Source: Pseudomonas neustonica (GTDB lineage Bacteria; Pseudomonadota; Gammaproteobacteria; Pseudomonadales; Pseudomonadaceae). Taken from it: a stretch of DNA of 64,000 bases. The notes under the pieces are model-generated. The model was not told the origin of the DNA and did no database searches. It worked only from the letters and a program-made list of their open reading frames with translations. The position numbers and the translations under genes were made by a program. The stretch lies in assembly GCF_003797945.1 (NCBI RefSeq), contig NZ_RKKU01000003.1:62001-126000 (forward strand), in the 5' to 3' direction. Of the stretch, positions 6,396 to 14,622 are shown piece after piece (the first letter of the stretch is position 1; each line of letters opens with the position of its first letter).

Positions 6396-6539
6396 ACTGA
6401 ACCTTGTTGTGTTTTATGAGTTGGCGGCAGTAGCTGTTGTCACAATATGACGATAATTTGCCGGTTGCAACGGGTGTTGCGGTTAACGGCTGAGCAGAAG
6501 ATAGGACGGTCATAGCCATAACAACAAGAGGATGACTGC

Positions 6540-7742
6540 ATGACTGCAACTGCTGCGCAAGATAATGGCCTTTCAGGCTACGTGGACCGCAAACGCCGCC
6601 TTTGGCTGTTTTCGTTGATGGTGCCAGGGCTGGCACTGGTCGGTCCGTTGCTTTATATGCTGGTGTCGCCGCAGATCATCTGGCTGTGGTTGTCGACCCT
6701 GTTCGGCTACGTCGTAATCCCCATGCTGGACGGCGTGCTGGGAGAAGATCTGAGTAATCCGCCGGAAGAGGCGGTTCCCGCCCTTGAAGCTGATAGCTAC
6801 TACCGTTACGTGACCTACGCTCTGGTGCCCATTCTGTGGATCAGCTTTCTGGTCAATATCATTTTTCTCGGTACCCACGATCTGCCCTGGTATGGAACTC
6901 TGGCTGTCATTCTGGCGACCGGCGGCTCGCTCGGTTTTGGCCTGAATCTCGGGCATGAGATGGGGCACAAGAAGACCACGCTGGAGCGATGGTTGGCAAA
7001 GATTACTCTGGCTTTGGGCTGTTATGGGCACTTTTTTGTAGAGCATAACCGCGGTCATCATCGCGATGTGGCTACTCCGGAGGATCCCGCTTCAGCTCGC
7101 ATGGGCGAGAGTATTTACCGTTTTGTGTTTCGCGAGATGCCCGGCGCCTTCTTTCGTGCCTGGGATCTTGAAGCTCAGCGGCTGGATCGCTGCGGCAAGT
7201 CGGTATGGAGTCTGGAAAACGAGATTCTGCAGCCTGCGCTGATCAGTGCTGTGCTCTATGGTGGGCTAATTGCCTGGCTGGGTATCGAGATGCTGCCAAT
7301 CATGCTGCTGATTGCCTTTTGGGGCGCTTTCCAATTGACTCAGGCCAATTACATCGAACATTACGGCCTGCTGCGTGCCAAGCAGGCGAATGGGCGCTAC
7401 GAGCGTTGTCAGCCGCACCATTCGTGGAACAGCAATCACCTGTTTTCCAATTGGGCGCTTTTTCATCTTCAGCGTCACTCTGATCATCACGCTCACCCAA
7501 CACGGCGATATCAGTCGCTGCGTGACTTCCCCGATCTGCCACGTTTACCGAATGGCTACTTTGGTATGTACCTGCTGGCCTACTTCCCGCAGCTCTGGGC
7601 TAAGGTGATGGATAAACGCCTGCTAGCTGCGGTTGATCGTGATCCGGAGCGCATCAATTTCTTGCCGGCGAAGAAAGAGATGTTGATGCGCCGCTACAAT
7701 CTGGGGCCGCAAGAACAGGTGCCAGAGGAGGTTTTGGCATGA
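6540..7742 (+). CDS. alkB: Alkane 1-monooxygenase (membrane di-iron hydroxylase)
   Basis: Inner-membrane non-haem di-iron enzyme that hydroxylates the terminal carbon of n-alkanes with electrons from rubredoxin. All histidine boxes are present: HEMGH (139-143), EHNRGHH (168-174), the NYIEHYG motif (270-276), and LQRHSDHHA (310-318). Six hydrophobic segments precede or separate them. Ungapped comparison to the remembered P. putida GPo1 enzyme puts Gly56 where that enzyme has the bulky gate Trp55, suggesting a longer substrate range. The ribosome site is agagga. The stop codon overlaps the rubredoxin start (ATGA). Confidence 0.97.
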   Translation: MTATAAQDNGLSGYVDRKRRLWLFSLMVPGLALVGPLLYMLVSPQIIWLWLSTLFGYVVIPMLDGVLGEDLSNPPEEAVPALEADSYYRYVTYALVPILWISFLVNIIFLGTHDLPWYGTLAVILATGGSLGFGLNLGHEMGHKKTTLERWLAKITLALGCYGHFFVEHNRGHHRDVATPEDPASARMGESIYRFVFREMPGAFFRAWDLEAQRLDRCGKSVWSLENEILQPALISAVLYGGLIAWLGIEMLPIMLLIAFWGAFQLTQANYIEHYGLLRAKQANGRYERCQPHHSWNSNHLFSNWALFHLQRHSDHHAHPTRRYQSLRDFPDLPRLPNGYFGMYLLAYFPQLWAKVMDKRLLAAVDRDPERINFLPAKKEMLMRRYNLGPQEQVPEEVLA

Positions 7743-7909
7743 CGCGATACCGTTGCCCGGAATGTGACTACGAGTATGCCGAAGCGCAGGGTGATCCCCA
7801 TCAGGGATTCGCGCCGGGTACGCCCTGGGAGGCGTTGCCGGACAGTTTTACCTGTCCGGATTGCGCGGTGCGCTTCAAGGAGGACTTTACGCTGGTCGAG
7901 GATTCATAG
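7739..7909 (+). CDS. AlkG1-type rubredoxin (56 aa)
   Basis: One-iron electron carrier expected to serve a membrane alkane hydroxylase. Cysteines are in CPEC (6-9) and CPDC (39-42). The residues after the second pair, AVRFKEDF, carry the extra arginine-containing position of the AlkG1 class (GPo1 AlkG N-terminal domain has CPDCAVRDKLDF as I recall). Both glycines that usually follow the CxxC pairs are replaced (Asp10, Ala43). Translation is coupled to alkB through ATGA. The last six bases overlap the stop end of the convergent transporter gene. Confidence 0.95.
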   Translation: MTRYRCPECDYEYAEAQGDPHQGFAPGTPWEALPDSFTCPDCAVRFKEDFTLVEDS

Positions 7910-9802
7910 CGGCCACACCCACAGCAGCATGGGTATGCTGACGGTAACGACCAGCAGCTCCAGCGGCAAACCGAGGCGCCAGTAATCTCCGAAGCGAAAG
8001 CCACCGGGACCGAGGATCAGGGTATTGTTCTGATGGCCAATAGGTGTCAGAAAGGCGCAGGAGGCGCCTATCGCCACGGCCATCAGAAAGCTGTCGGCAT
8101 TGACGTGTAACTGCCCGGCCACGCTCAAGGCGATGGGGCACATGACGGCGGCGGTAGCCGCGTTGTTCATGAAGTCGGATAGCGTCATGGTGACGATCAG
8201 GATTAACGCCAGGGCAATGATCGCATTGCCCTGAGCCAGATGTTCCAGCAGCGTTTTGGCCAGCAGGTCAGCAGCGCCGGTACTCGCCATGGCGGCGGCC
8301 AGCGGCATTAACGCAGCCAGCAATACGACAATCGGCCAATCCACTGCCTCGTAGATTCGGCGTAACGGAATGACGCGTGTCAGCATGTACCCCAGCACGC
8401 CGGCGATAAAAGCAACGGCTGCCGGGAGTATGCCAAAGGCGGCAAGACCGATGGCCCCCAGCATAATACTGATGGCGTATAGAGCCTTGCGGCGGTCAGG
8501 GATCAGAATGCTGCGTGCCGCCAACGGCACACAGCCATACTCACTGGCAAAGCCGGAGATGGCCTCTGGTGGTCCCTGCATCAGGAGTACGTCACCGGCT
8601 TCAATCGCGGTCCAGCGCAGGCGACGAATGGACCTGTGGCCCTGCCGCGATATCGCCAGCAAATTGATACCAAACCGGGTGCGTAGTTGAATGTCCGATG
8701 CGCTTCGACCCAGAATGTCTGCGCTGGGCTGAACGGCCAACTCGCGCAGGGTTATTTCATCGGACTGATCGGGTTTGCTGTTTTTTTCTTTGCTCGTCTC
8801 TTCGCTCGCGTCCGGATCTTCCTGCGGGCGGCTAGCATCGCTTACGTTGGCATCCTGCTCGGCGTGTTCGTCGCCATCTTCCGACTCGCTGTGTTTTTCT
8901 GTCGTACTGGTAGGTACCGCTTCTTCCAGTTTTAAGCCAAGGCGTGTCAACGAAGCGCCAAGTCCCTCTGGTTCTGCCTCAATAACCAGGATGTCACCGG
9001 CATGCAGTATTCGGCTGGGCATAGGGGCGGTGACGCGGAAGTCGTTGCGGACCATACCGACAATCTGGGCATCGCTCTCGTCCAGCAGTTTCTCCACTTC
9101 CGCGAGGGTCTTGCCGTCGGCCTTGCTGTCAGCGTCGATATGCACTTCGGTCAGATAGGTGCCGGTATCGAAACTTCCGACATCGGGTTGCGTGCGATGC
9201 GGCACCAGCCAGCGGCTGGTCAGCACGACAAAGACAATCCCTGCTGCCGCAACTGACAGGCCCACGGGAGTGAAATCAAACATGCCAAAGCTGCCCAGCT
9301 CCTGTTGCGCGCGAAAGCCCGCTACGATCAAGTTGGGTGGGGTGCCAATCAGCGTAGTCATGCCGCCGAGAATGGTGCCGAAGGCCAAGGGCATGAGCAC
9401 TTTGCCGGGTGGTAGCCCTTCGCGCGCAGCGAGTTGCAGGGCCAGTGGCATCAATAGCGCCATGGCACCTACGTTATTCATGAAGGCGGAGAGGAAAGCG
9501 CCAAGCAGAGTCAGCACTATCAGGCTGAGCAAGGCGCCGCCGCGCTTGGGCAGGACGCGCTGCGCCAGCGCCTCAACAGCGCCGGTGGTCTGCAAGCCTT
9601 TGCTGAGAATCAACACTGCTGCCACGGTGATGACTGCAGGATGGCCGAAGCCGACAAAGGCGTCAGCCGCTGGCGTCAACCCGCTTACTACGCAGGCCAT
9701 CAGCGCGGCCAGGGCGACCACATCGTGTCGCCAGCGCCCCCAGAGGAACAGGGCAATAGTACAACCCAGAATCAACAGAATCAGTTGCTGACTGGCATCC
9801 AT
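7904..9802 (-). CDS. SLC13/DASS-type anion permease with two RCK-C (TrkA-C) domains
   Basis: Inner-membrane transporter of about 11-12 segments in two repeats (residues about 1-200 and 430-632) flanking a cytoplasmic block. Each half has the family hairpin signature (IGTPPNLIVAGFR; TPIGHQNNTLILGPGG). The central block holds two RCK-C domains (about 215-300 and 355-435). Unusually, they are separated by about 50 residues that are almost all Glu, Asp, Ser, Lys and Gln. The substrate could be sulfate, a dicarboxylate or another anion, and sequence does not decide. It converges on the rubredoxin gene with a six-base overlap. Confidence 0.85.
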   Translation of the reverse strand: MDASQQLILLILGCTIALFLWGRWRHDVVALAALMACVVSGLTPAADAFVGFGHPAVITVAAVLILSKGLQTTGAVEALAQRVLPKRGGALLSLIVLTLLGAFLSAFMNNVGAMALLMPLALQLAAREGLPPGKVLMPLAFGTILGGMTTLIGTPPNLIVAGFRAQQELGSFGMFDFTPVGLSVAAAGIVFVVLTSRWLVPHRTQPDVGSFDTGTYLTEVHIDADSKADGKTLAEVEKLLDESDAQIVGMVRNDFRVTAPMPSRILHAGDILVIEAEPEGLGASLTRLGLKLEEAVPTSTTEKHSESEDGDEHAEQDANVSDASRPQEDPDASEETSKEKNSKPDQSDEITLRELAVQPSADILGRSASDIQLRTRFGINLLAISRQGHRSIRRLRWTAIEAGDVLLMQGPPEAISGFASEYGCVPLAARSILIPDRRKALYAISIMLGAIGLAAFGILPAAVAFIAGVLGYMLTRVIPLRRIYEAVDWPIVVLLAALMPLAAAMASTGAADLLAKTLLEHLAQGNAIIALALILIVTMTLSDFMNNAATAAVMCPIALSVAGQLHVNADSFLMAVAIGASCAFLTPIGHQNNTLILGPGGFRFGDYWRLGLPLELLVVTVSIPMLLWVWPL

Positions 9803-11354: not shown

Positions 11355-12308
11355 TTATTGCCATACAGTCGTGCGGTTTCGCCCCTCTGCTTTGGAGCGA
11401 TAGAGCGCTTTGTCTGCGCGCTCGATCAGATCCTGATACTTTTCAATATCGGGCGTTATTCCCGCAACGCCGACGCTGACAGTGAACTTCAGCGGTGTGC
11501 CCTGATGCTCAATCTGTTGCCGCTCAATACTCTCCCTGAGACGCTCGGCAAACTGCTCGGCACCTTCCAGCGAGGTATCCGGCAGCAGTATGGCAAACTC
11601 TTCACCACCGTAGCGCCCGCAGAAGTCGGTCTCTCTGGCCAACTGTTCGGTCAGTCTTGCTGCTGTGCGGATGACTTCGTCGCCAGCCTGGTGGCCAAAG
11701 CTATCATTGATTTTTTTGAACTGATCGATATCCATCATTACCAGGCTGACCTGATTGTCGTAGCGCTGGTAGCGAGCGAACTCGTGCTCAAGACAGCTTT
11801 CCCAGTAGCGGCGGTTGAGTAGCCCGGTTAAACCATCGCGCAGTGCCAATTCCTGCAGCTTGGTGTTGGCCGACTCCAGCTGACGCTTATTCACGGCAAC
11901 GCCGGTCACGTCATAGATAATCAGACATACGCGGTCGGTTTTGCCGGTAATGCTGCTCAGCGGCAGGATAGTAACGTTCTGGTACATCTCGTCGGCCAGC
12001 CCGGTGATGGGCTGGTAGCTTTTGAAACGAAACAGGTTGGGGCGCTGCTCCCAGATGGTAAAGGCACGGGTACCCAGCATCACCGAGGTTTCAACTTTCT
12101 GTGTGAACCAGGCCTGGTCAATTTCCGGGAATAGCTCGAACAGCGATTGCTGGTTTACCTTGTCCGAGCCGAAGCCGGAATGGTTCTCCATAAAGCTGTT
12201 CCATACTTCTATCTTGTAGTCGCGATCCATGACTACCAGGCCTACATCGATACTTTGCACAATATCGAGCAGCCAGTGAAGTTCATTGATGTCAAACTGA
12301 GCAGCCAT
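11355..12308 (-). CDS. PAS-domain diguanylate cyclase
   Basis: Soluble cyclic-di-GMP synthase. An N-terminal PAS domain (about 8-135) is followed by a short linker helix and a GGDEF domain (about 150-317). The active site GGEEF is at 234-238, and the RxxD inhibitory site RETD is at 225-228, exactly five residues before it, so product inhibition is expected. It starts 14 bases after the stop of the receiver-CheC gene, so the two are almost certainly one operon and probably one pathway. The C-terminus ends normally in ADKALYRSKAEGRNR. Confidence 0.93.
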   Translation of the reverse strand: MAAQFDINELHWLLDIVQSIDVGLVVMDRDYKIEVWNSFMENHSGFGSDKVNQQSLFELFPEIDQAWFTQKVETSVMLGTRAFTIWEQRPNLFRFKSYQPITGLADEMYQNVTILPLSSITGKTDRVCLIIYDVTGVAVNKRQLESANTKLQELALRDGLTGLLNRRYWESCLEHEFARYQRYDNQVSLVMMDIDQFKKINDSFGHQAGDEVIRTAARLTEQLARETDFCGRYGGEEFAILLPDTSLEGAEQFAERLRESIERQQIEHQGTPLKFTVSVGVAGITPDIEKYQDLIERADKALYRSKAEGRNRTTVWQ

Positions 12309-12322
12309 GCACCTTGCCTTTT

Positions 12323-13327
12323 TCAGTTGATCATAAAGTCTAGAGTTTCCCGCAGCCGAGGCACGGAATCTTCGGTGAACAGCAGCAACAGGTCGAAATG
12401 AATCTCCAGGTCTTCCAACCCGTAGCTGATCTCTACAGCCAGGGTGCGCTTCCAGCGACGCTGATTAATGCGTATCAAATCTTCAATGGGGCAATGTTGC
12501 CCAAGCACCATTGGGTGGCCCTGTGAAAGGGAAATATTGAGCTGTTCAGACAGGCCGTTGAGGCAGGCTCCAATGATGATGCTGGCTAGATCGAGCAGCA
12601 TCTCAAGCTGAGCGCTCTCATCTTCCCGCGTGTTCAGGAGGTGTGCAACGTCGCCGATCTCTGAATCATGAAATATCAGCAATGCCTCGCCGGCCACCCC
12701 GGCGCCAATAAAGCCCTGACAGATCGCAGAAAGGCGCTGACCGCGCTGTGCGTCGGCTAACGCCATATGCAGCTCGCCGACTTCCAGGATGTTGACGTTG
12801 GGAATAGGTAACTTGATAAAAATACCGAGTACCCGGCCCAACAGCTCTGCGGCGCGGCCCATCGCGACGTTCGAGACCTCGCGAAAGGCATCTCGGAAAG
12901 ACACGGTAGGCAGATGCAGATCGCTTTCTCTGCTCTCTGCAGGTGCCTCTGTCAAAGGGATCTCAACACCGAGCGAATTTAGGGCTTCGGCAAGTTGTAA
13001 TGGATCGGCCGGCTTTTTCAGGAACGCCTTGGCTCCCAGTGCCTTTGCCCGCCGTACGGCTTCTTCCTGCACATCGCCGGATACAACGATGACGTCCGGT
13101 GTCAGCGCCTCTTCGCGCAGCGCCGCAAGGACGCCGAAGCCATCCAGCTCAGGCATCGTCAGATCCAGGAGTACTACCTGCCCAGCTCCGGCACGAATGG
13201 CTGCAAGTCCCTCAAGGCCATTTGTAGCTTGCGTGATCCGGAATGGCCAATTTGCTGGCAGCGCCCGAATCAGCTGCTTGCGAGCCATATTGGAGTCGTC
13301 ACATACCAGCAGGGAAATTGCGGTCAC
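12323..13327 (-). CDS. Receiver domain fused to a CheC-type phosphatase domain
   Basis: 334 residues. Residues 1-120 form a CheY-like receiver with acidic pair Asp10/Asp11, phosphoacceptor Asp55, Ser83 and Lys104/105. Residues about 143-334 form a CheC/CheX-like fold. Its first half keeps the CheY-phosphate phosphatase pattern (D/S)xxxExxN-x22-P as Asp146, Glu150, Asn153 and Pro176. The equivalent segment in the second half (near DLASIIIGACLNGL) has lost Glu and Asn, so one active site is predicted. It is the first gene of an operon with the PAS-diguanylate cyclase. It may dephosphorylate itself or a partner receiver; no chemotaxis genes are nearby. Confidence 0.85.
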   Translation of the reverse strand: MTAISLLVCDDSNMARKQLIRALPANWPFRITQATNGLEGLAAIRAGAGQVVLLDLTMPELDGFGVLAALREEALTPDVIVVSGDVQEEAVRRAKALGAKAFLKKPADPLQLAEALNSLGVEIPLTEAPAESRESDLHLPTVSFRDAFREVSNVAMGRAAELLGRVLGIFIKLPIPNVNILEVGELHMALADAQRGQRLSAICQGFIGAGVAGEALLIFHDSEIGDVAHLLNTREDESAQLEMLLDLASIIIGACLNGLSEQLNISLSQGHPMVLGQHCPIEDLIRINQRRWKRTLAVEISYGLEDLEIHFDLLLLFTEDSVPRLRETLDFMIN

Positions 13328-13572: not shown

Positions 13573-14622
13573 ATGGCCGAGCAACTTGAGCAAGATCAAA
13601 GCCATCGCCGCTCCGTGTTGCGCGCGCTGTTGTGGCTTACGCTCCTCTTTGGTTTTACCTTTGCAGGTTTAAATATCTATCGAGGGCTATATCTTTTGGC
13701 TGCCATTGAGGTGGCCTATGCTTTATTCAGCTTCAGTTTGTTGCCCATCATTCCCAAGACAAAGCATCTTGATGCTTGGACAATCGCGTTTCTGGTTCCT
13801 TTTTTCTGCATCATGGTGTTCGCTTTGGTGCTGCCCAATACGTCCTTCACCGTCTTTGCCTGGATTCAGACTATCCCCATTATTTCTTACCTGCTATTGG
13901 GGCAGCGCGGTGGGCTGTGGATGTCATGCATCTTTATTTCAGCCGCGATTGTTGCCTTCAACGTGCGCTATATAACGGGTGAAAATGCGATGAATGCGCT
14001 CATTGTTACCAACCTGGCGTTCAGCAGTTTGGCCGTTATGCTTTTTTCGCATATTTATGAGCGTAGTCGAACGCGTAATGAAGCCCGGTTGATTGAGCTT
14101 GCCGGTACCGACAGTTTGACCGGCATTGCCAATCGGATGCGTATGGGTGAGGAATTCACTCGCTTACGCAGCCAGGCCGAGCGCAGCGCAATGGCGTTGT
14201 CTCTGGTGGTGCTGGACGTCGACAAGTTCAAGCACGTCAATGATCAATATGGACACGAGACAGGTGACAGGGCGTTGCAGCATATTGCGGGCAAACTCTC
14301 AGAGCGTTTGCGCGGTTCTGATATGGTCTGTCGATTGGGTGGCGAAGAGTTCGCTCTTTTGTTGCTGGGCGCGGATCATCAGCAGGCGGCAAAGTTGGCT
14401 GATCATTTGCGTCAGCAGGTCTTTGCAACGCCGTTGAAGTTGAACGGTACCGAGCTGCAGATCAGTTTCAGCGGGGGGGTCGCCACCTTGTCAGATGATG
14501 GCGATGACCTCAGTACGTTGTTGAAAGTGGCTGACCAACGCATGTACGAGGCCAAGAGCTCCGGGCGTAACCGGATCGTTTCTGCGCATAACCCTGTTCC
14601 AGAATCCTTGGTCAGCAGCTGA
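13573..14622 (+). CDS. Membrane-anchored diguanylate cyclase
   Basis: Residues about 15-160 contain six hydrophobic segments with little soluble loop. A helical linker (RSRTRNEARLIEL) joins them to a GGDEF domain. The active site GGEEF is at 256-260, with inhibitory site RGSD at 247-250. The ATG has an aagagga site about 6 bases upstream. It is divergent from the receiver-CheC operon across 245 bases that must hold both promoters. The N-terminal membrane domain probably senses a membrane or redox signal, but I do not recognise a named sensor family. Confidence 0.92.
   Translation: MAEQLEQDQSHRRSVLRALLWLTLLFGFTFAGLNIYRGLYLLAAIEVAYALFSFSLLPIIPKTKHLDAWTIAFLVPFFCIMVFALVLPNTSFTVFAWIQTIPIISYLLLGQRGGLWMSCIFISAAIVAFNVRYITGENAMNALIVTNLAFSSLAVMLFSHIYERSRTRNEARLIELAGTDSLTGIANRMRMGEEFTRLRSQAERSAMALSLVVLDVDKFKHVNDQYGHETGDRALQHIAGKLSERLRGSDMVCRLGGEEFALLLLGADHQQAAKLADHLRQQVFATPLKLNGTELQISFSGGVATLSDDGDDLSTLLKVADQRMYEAKSSGRNRIVSAHNPVPESLVSS

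Follow-up and report, generated by a model that had tools for sequence, protein, structure and literature searches.

CheC-type phosphatases and their partners

The closest described systems are the CheC, CheD and CheY-P proteins of Bacillus subtilis and Thermotoga (structures 1xkr and 2f9z). In Bacillus, CheY-P strengthens the binding between CheC and CheD, and this binding is reported to matter more than catalysis (PMC3513319). The locus described here shares with these systems the CheC fold, the active-site motif, a CheY-like receiver and a third partner encoded beside CheC, yet it differs in having one intact active site, a receiver fused to CheC (elsewhere encoded next door), a PAS protein in place of CheD and no chemotaxis genes recognised nearby by eye. 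A second CheY-CheC pair, DifD/DifG of Myxococcus xanthus, has a reported role in exopolysaccharide control (PMC4671073). DifD and DifG belong to the Dif chemosensory proteins, and the available part of that paper names no PAS partner for them, whereas the present module has one.

Within Pseudomonas, a single CheC-like response regulator has been catalogued in each of three strains of P. syringae (PMC2222644). These proteins, PSYR0886, PSPTO1039 and PSPPH0923, have the same REC and CheC architecture as the protein studied here, yet they are listed as orphan regulators with no partner named in the accessible text, whereas the present REC-CheC protein has a PAS partner. The P. syringae-group loci collected in this work contain a REC-CheC gene together with a PAS-only gene, and they resemble the three listed proteins in architecture. 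For purified Psyr_0886, no phosphorylation was detected by BphP1, the sole kinase tried in that work (PMC5654926). More loosely relevant is a CheX-family protein mentioned for V. cholerae in a further paper (PMC8789113).

FliY and CheX are related to CheC in fold, as 4hyn (FliY) was matched by profile and 1squ and 1xko (CheX) by fold comparison. The second half of CheC has no counterpart in CheX, and FliY belongs to the motor. In response-regulator cyclases of the WspR/PleD type, the receiver sits on the cyclase itself and controls its GGDEF output; here, in contrast, the receiver is attached to the phosphatase, and a PAS protein encoded separately provides the cyclase.

Each part of the locus is of a known kind, and receiver-CheC regulators have already been catalogued in P. 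syringae (PMC2222644). The locus represents a genuine module that is conserved widely, and the combination of its known parts into a three-part unit with a dispensable cyclase was not found described in the titles and abstract openings of the open-licence literature; a prior mention is possible.

Architecture of the locus

The window, i.e., the whole stretch of 64,000 nucleotides that was analysed, comes from the 4.33 Mb genome of Pseudomonas neustonica. Among the matches listed, the closest named CheC domain is 96% identical and belongs to a metagenome-assembled genome of Halopseudomonas sabulinigri. The features of the operon are as follows.

12323-13327, minus strand: REC-CheC fusion gene, 334 aa, GTG start (Pfam, profile and fold evidence)
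12974-13318, minus strand: REC domain, aa 4-118, with D10, D11, D55, S83 and K105 (Pfam and conserved residues)
12326-12904, minus strand: CheC domain, aa 142-334 (profile and fold match to 1xkr)
12800-12892, minus strand: CheC site 1, intact, D146-x3-E150-x2-N153-x22-P176 (residue counts, 180 loci)
12512-12604, minus strand: CheC site 2, degenerate, E242-x3-D246-x2-S249-x22-P272 (residue counts, 180 loci)
12309-12322, minus strand: intergenic gap of 14 bases between the REC-CheC gene and the PAS-GGDEF gene
11355-12308, minus strand: PAS-GGDEF gene, 317 aa (Pfam GGDEF 170.6 bits, PAS_4 32.1 bits)
11874-12308, minus strand: PAS domain, aa 1-145, conserved partner of REC-CheC (co-occurrence, and position in 177/180 loci)
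11373-11846, minus strand: GGDEF domain, aa 155-312, with GGEEF and the I-site RETD (Pfam and sequence)

The REC-CheC gene lies upstream of the PAS-GGDEF gene on the same strand, separated by the 14 bases given in the earlier note. That note had also seen no chemotaxis genes near the operon, in agreement with the open reading frames listed for 8-18 kb of the window, among which none was recognised by eye, not all of them having been profile-tested. By the same inspection of the list, no kinase gene was recognised adjoining the operon, and CheD is not encoded in it, the downstream partner being the PAS protein. Promoter and terminator scans gave signals near shuffle level.

Upstream of the operon, a divergent MASE6-GGDEF gene is found at 13573-14622 on the plus strand. 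Apart from the window's own, a MASE6 relative occurs among the fetched loci only in L091-L095; in the clade formed by the window and these five loci, the receiver gene is flanked by two cyclase genes on account of this neighbour.

Relatives were collected as 180 loci with one best CheC each. In the order, a whole-protein query at E<=1e-25 identified 147 carriers among 390 genomes, and 60 loci from 58 of these were chosen by the analyst down the ranking. A further 80 named loci are the best of at least 544 relatives, hence all close ones. In the class, 64 of 369 genomes were positive, and 38 of them supplied the remaining 40 loci. The three sets overlap in species, and the 177 rows of the tree discussed below include 175 different ones.

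The receiver and its probable phosphatase

The receiver scores 70.7 bits against Pfam Response_reg (cut-off 30.2), and the phospho-acceptor Asp, the acidic pair and the Lys of response regulators are all present in the window protein. Among relatives, D10, D11 and D55 are each conserved in 51/51 sequences and S83 in 52/52, while a lysine occurs at position 105 in 52/53 and at 104 in 37/53, which favours K105 over K104 as the catalytic residue. The complete receiver of the earlier note, with Asp55, Ser83 and Lys104/105, is thus upheld, its lysine more likely being K105. From what is known of the family, phosphorylation would be expected at D55.

The second domain of the protein reached the cut-off of no Pfam family: Pfam CheC (PF04509, a model of only 38 positions) had no match in the whole genome, and Pfam CheX scored 14.9 bits, below its cut-off of 27. 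A profile built from 31 relatives nevertheless matched T. maritima CheC (1xkr) and FliY (4hyn), each at E 2e-11, as well as the CheC-CheD complex (2f9z) at E 3e-11. An AlphaFold model of the whole REC-CheC protein, based on an alignment of 81 rows, was predicted with very high local and overall confidence, and its residues 142-334 superposed on 1xkr with Z 19.9 and an rmsd of 2.6 over 186 aligned residues, covering both CheC halves. The model has predicted helices at 144-167 and 237-263, the first of which bears the site-1 motif, so that the active-site helix anticipated by the earlier note is present in the prediction. The high overall confidence also suggests a defined arrangement of the receiver relative to the CheC domain. 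By fold, profile and motif, the domain is filed as CheC despite the missing Pfam match, and CheX was rejected as an alternative assignment because the CheC match in the fold comparison spans both halves.

CheC-type active sites follow the consensus [D/S]-x3-E-x2-N-x22-P. At site 1, E150 and N153 are both present in 180/180 loci, P176 in 178/180 and D146 in 169/180, and the window protein has the motif exactly as the earlier note had read it. At site 2, D occupies position 246 in 166/180 loci and S, N or T position 249 in 172/180, and P272 is invariant (180/180). The catalytic E and N are not kept here, and the second intact E-x2-N site of a two-site CheC is replaced in the window by D246-x2-S249. 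The earlier note was right to call this half degenerate with respect to the catalytic letters, though it overlooked that the spacing and the proline are retained. The simplest reading of these counts is one probably working CheC site and one relic. Given the invariant E150 and N153, the CheC fold and what is known of the family, the domain would hydrolyse the phosphate of the receiver, and the unbroken pair E150/N153 suggests that this module depends on catalysis, which is reported to play a minor role in B. subtilis.

The receiver and the CheC domain are rarely parted. Among the 60 order loci, the two are fused in 30 and encoded by adjacent separate genes in 26, with no adjacent receiver in 4; all 80 named loci have the fusion, and altogether a receiver is fused to or adjoins CheC in 176/180 loci. 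Even the unlinked receivers of G118, G209 and G288 are still 55-57% identical. Two receiver genes of apparent lengths 598 and 1784 aa (L204 and L208) match in the receiver portion only; they are probably over-extended open frames and were set aside. These patterns support the view that receiver and CheC probably act as a pair.

It could instead be argued that the system drains phosphate. CheC might dephosphorylate further CheY-like proteins in trans, in line with the drained distant regulator that the earlier note gave as its second option, or the receiver might take up phosphate from a kinase that it shares with other proteins, as proposed for DifD with DifG. Such a role has a precedent, as DifD was proposed to be a sink and DifG speeds the dephosphorylation of DifD-P (PMC4671073), and the lack of a recognised kinase gene beside the window operon would fit it. 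However, the close linkage of receiver and CheC favours the attached receiver as the substrate, and the drain leaves the PAS partner described below unexplained. Moreover, the host genome already encodes CheZ, which makes it improbable that CheC is the ordinary CheY phosphatase of this host. We consider the drain quite improbable and favour the receiver as the partner of its own CheC domain.

A PAS protein as the constant partner

When 13 PAS domains were combined into a profile and the same 390 order genomes were searched with it, 148 were positive; both PAS and REC-CheC were found in 146, CheC only in 1 and PAS only in 2. Weak whole-protein matches might reflect the receiver alone, and the 31 weakest carriers (G310 apart) were therefore re-searched with the CheC profile: all 31 were positive at E 2e-60 or better, with a CheC that adjoins the PAS position when the two were compared by eye. 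The PAS gene follows immediately downstream, in the same orientation, in 59/60 order, 80/80 named and 38/40 class loci, i.e., in 177/180. Chance neighbourhood of PAS and REC-CheC was ruled out by the co-occurrence, the downstream position and the CheC re-search. No CheC-PAS or REC-PAS fusion occurs in the 180 loci.

The exceptions are few. At a looser threshold, G309, a PAS-only case, has a CheC stub beside the PAS gene that matches the last 56 profile positions, and G310 shows a PAS match, though a weak one, close to another CheC copy; in G033, which has PAS, CheC was not found even at that threshold, and this genome stays an exception. The loci without PAS are L062, L215 and L216, of which L062 is an extra copy in G174, a genome whose other CheC, split over two frames, adjoins a PAS gene. 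A second CheC at E about 1e-56 accompanies a single PAS in three further genomes (G068:C1:2627401-2627994, G195:C15:112005-112598 and G215:C444:39021-39614). As these second copies, together with L062, have no second PAS, the CheC family does include a branch that lacks PAS.

Two side observations concern individual loci. The CheC in two frames at L220 (G174) and the CheC represented only by its end at L219 (G309) point to recent decay or assembly error. At L216, a gene at 6415-9666 encodes a hybrid kinase of 1083 aa (MASE3-PAS-HisKA-HATPase-REC-REC-Hpt) directly upstream of the PAS-less REC-CheC pair, a possible lead to the kinase.

The earlier note had anticipated that the REC-CheC fusion would co-occur with the neighbouring PAS-GGDEF type of gene across genomes, and it does so with 146 shared genomes and 3 mismatches among 390, the constant element being PAS. 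As judged from gene content, the conserved partner of REC-CheC is the PAS protein and not the cyclase. By analogy with CheC-CheD, and given that the two genes are so seldom separated, the PAS protein may bind REC-CheC; vertical inheritance may also account for the co-occurrence and the operon order.

An exchangeable output domain

What the PAS protein carries in addition differs between loci. Among the 177 loci with PAS, 124 encode PAS-GGDEF (including L205, from a separate search, and L214, which also has EAL), 50 encode PAS only and 3 another arrangement. On a FastTree tree of CheC and PAS, whose branches are long and which carries no direction of change, the presence or absence of GGDEF requires 9 changes, at least 7 of them forced by the starred branches. 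Loss of GGDEF is favoured, since almost all of the deep branches drawn contain the domain. For PAS, two PAS-only groups gave median dN/dS values of 0.123 and 0.047, and two groups with PAS-GGDEF gave 0.081 and 0.168; by this measure, purifying selection acts on the PAS-only genes of each group examined.

The arrangements beyond GGDEF include enzymes of other kinds. Among distant relatives, the third gene of L213 encodes a HATPase domain, without a Pfam match to HisKA, and its PAS match is clear at 81 bits; that of L218 encodes a HisKA-HATPase with a PAS match of 34 bits, whereas the third genes of L214 and L217 encode GGDEF-EAL proteins with PAS matches of 36 and 44 bits. The three distant relatives with weak PAS matches (34-44 bits) may belong to a sister system. 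In G734, three copies are found together, namely PAS-only, PAS-GGDEF and PAS-HATPase.

Among 123 PAS-GGDEF genes, the active-site motif is GGEEF or GGDEF in 107, SGEEF in 1 and GGEEY in 5, is cut short in 1 (L191) and is altered in 9; RxxD is present in 108/108 genes fitting the motif pattern. Seven related loci, L069-L075, have a variously altered GGDEF motif with the rest of the operon present, the change in L069, L070 and L074 affecting the fourth letter only. The window protein has GGEEF, the I-site RETD (RxxD) and a Pfam GGDEF score of 170.6 bits, so its cyclase is probably active and should make c-di-GMP.

A further explanation is that the module serves as a dedicated gate on c-di-GMP synthesis, as the earlier note had suggested in proposing a self-resetting switch that gates a c-di-GMP synthase. 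The intact motifs of the window cyclase keep such gating plausible in the window species, and retention of GG[DE]EF in 107/123 PAS-GGDEF genes speaks for it more widely. Against this stands the absence of GGDEF in 50/177 loci, through at least 7 changes, and its alteration in 9 more, in all of which PAS and CheC persist. Of the proposed switch, the part that fared well is the receiver-CheC pair, fused or adjacent with E150/N153 in every locus, together with its tie to the PAS gene; gating as a general function is weakened by the cyclase-free loci, whose PAS genes stay under purifying selection in the two groups examined. As the function of the module, a dedicated gate now seems very unlikely, and an output that can be exchanged is the reading followed below.

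Distribution and flagellar genes

FliM was matched in 273 of the 390 order genomes, in 144/147 carriers against 129/243 non-carriers (Fisher 3e-25), and in the class sample in 56/64 CheC-positive genomes against 126/305 others (Fisher 5e-12); counted by genus, where 59 of the genera in the order have the module and 104/143 have FliM, the gene occurs in 58/59 carrier genera and 46/84 others (Fisher 5e-10), all three values ignoring relatedness, completeness and genome size. The order carriers without a FliM match are G018 (97% complete), G119 (74%) and G275 (64%), and the sole carrier genus without FliM is that of G018. In the class, the CheC-positive genomes without FliM are G420, G421, G422, G436, G467, G564, G670 and G690, and the module is present without a FliM match in G422 and G690. 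The association is one of presence and absence only: among the places listed for FliM and the module, L189 is the one locus with a FliM gene close by (194-1459, about 4 kb away), and linkage to flagellar genes was dropped as evidence. The tie of the module to motility is only a lead, as the presence of FliM does not equal a working flagellum.

These counts bear on the possibility that information flows in the reverse direction, with the PAS sensor adjusting the CheC phosphatase, the phosphorylated receiver acting as a CheY-like output on the flagellum or another machine, and GGDEF forming an accessory branch. Such a flow would suit the PAS-only forms, which have no other enzymatic output, the mostly CheY-sized separate receiver genes, the existence of PAS kinase versions and the FliM matches in nearly all order carriers. 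It sits less well with a PAS protein that bears GGDEF in 124/177 loci, mostly with GG[DE]EF retained (107/123), and with the single instance of FliM near the module. We regard the reverse direction as rather unlikely, though as the most probable of the three rival explanations.

A proposed three-part phospho-signalling module

The reading preferred here is a three-part phospho-signalling module, in which a receiver is joined by a CheC phosphatase of its own and by a PAS partner that resembles CheD and bears an exchangeable output, and we judge its chances of being correct as about even. An unlinked kinase would phosphorylate the receiver at D55, and the CheC domain, through its one working site, would remove this phosphate in cis or between copies, so that the switch resets itself. 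The PAS protein encoded next door would bind the REC-CheC unit, as CheD binds CheC in Bacillus, and the phosphorylation state would be passed to, or tuned by, PAS. The output domain on PAS would then report this state, being GGDEF here and, in other lineages, nothing, GGDEF-EAL or a histidine kinase. Judging from the distribution, the final target would probably be motility related.

Stated more broadly, a general PAS-gated CheC switch can be tentatively proposed, with less confidence than the module itself. In such a switch, PAS would take the place of CheD and either read or set the phosphorylation state of a receiver that erases its own signal. Evolution would have re-wired the core to a histidine kinase, to a cyclase, to a cyclase joined with a phosphodiesterase or to no enzyme at all, chiefly in Gammaproteobacteria with a flagellar motor. 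If this is true, a chemotaxis-type phosphatase would work outside chemotaxis with a sensor partner, the orphan regulators of many Pseudomonas would gain testable partners, and caution would be due before such operons are called c-di-GMP systems by their most visible domain.
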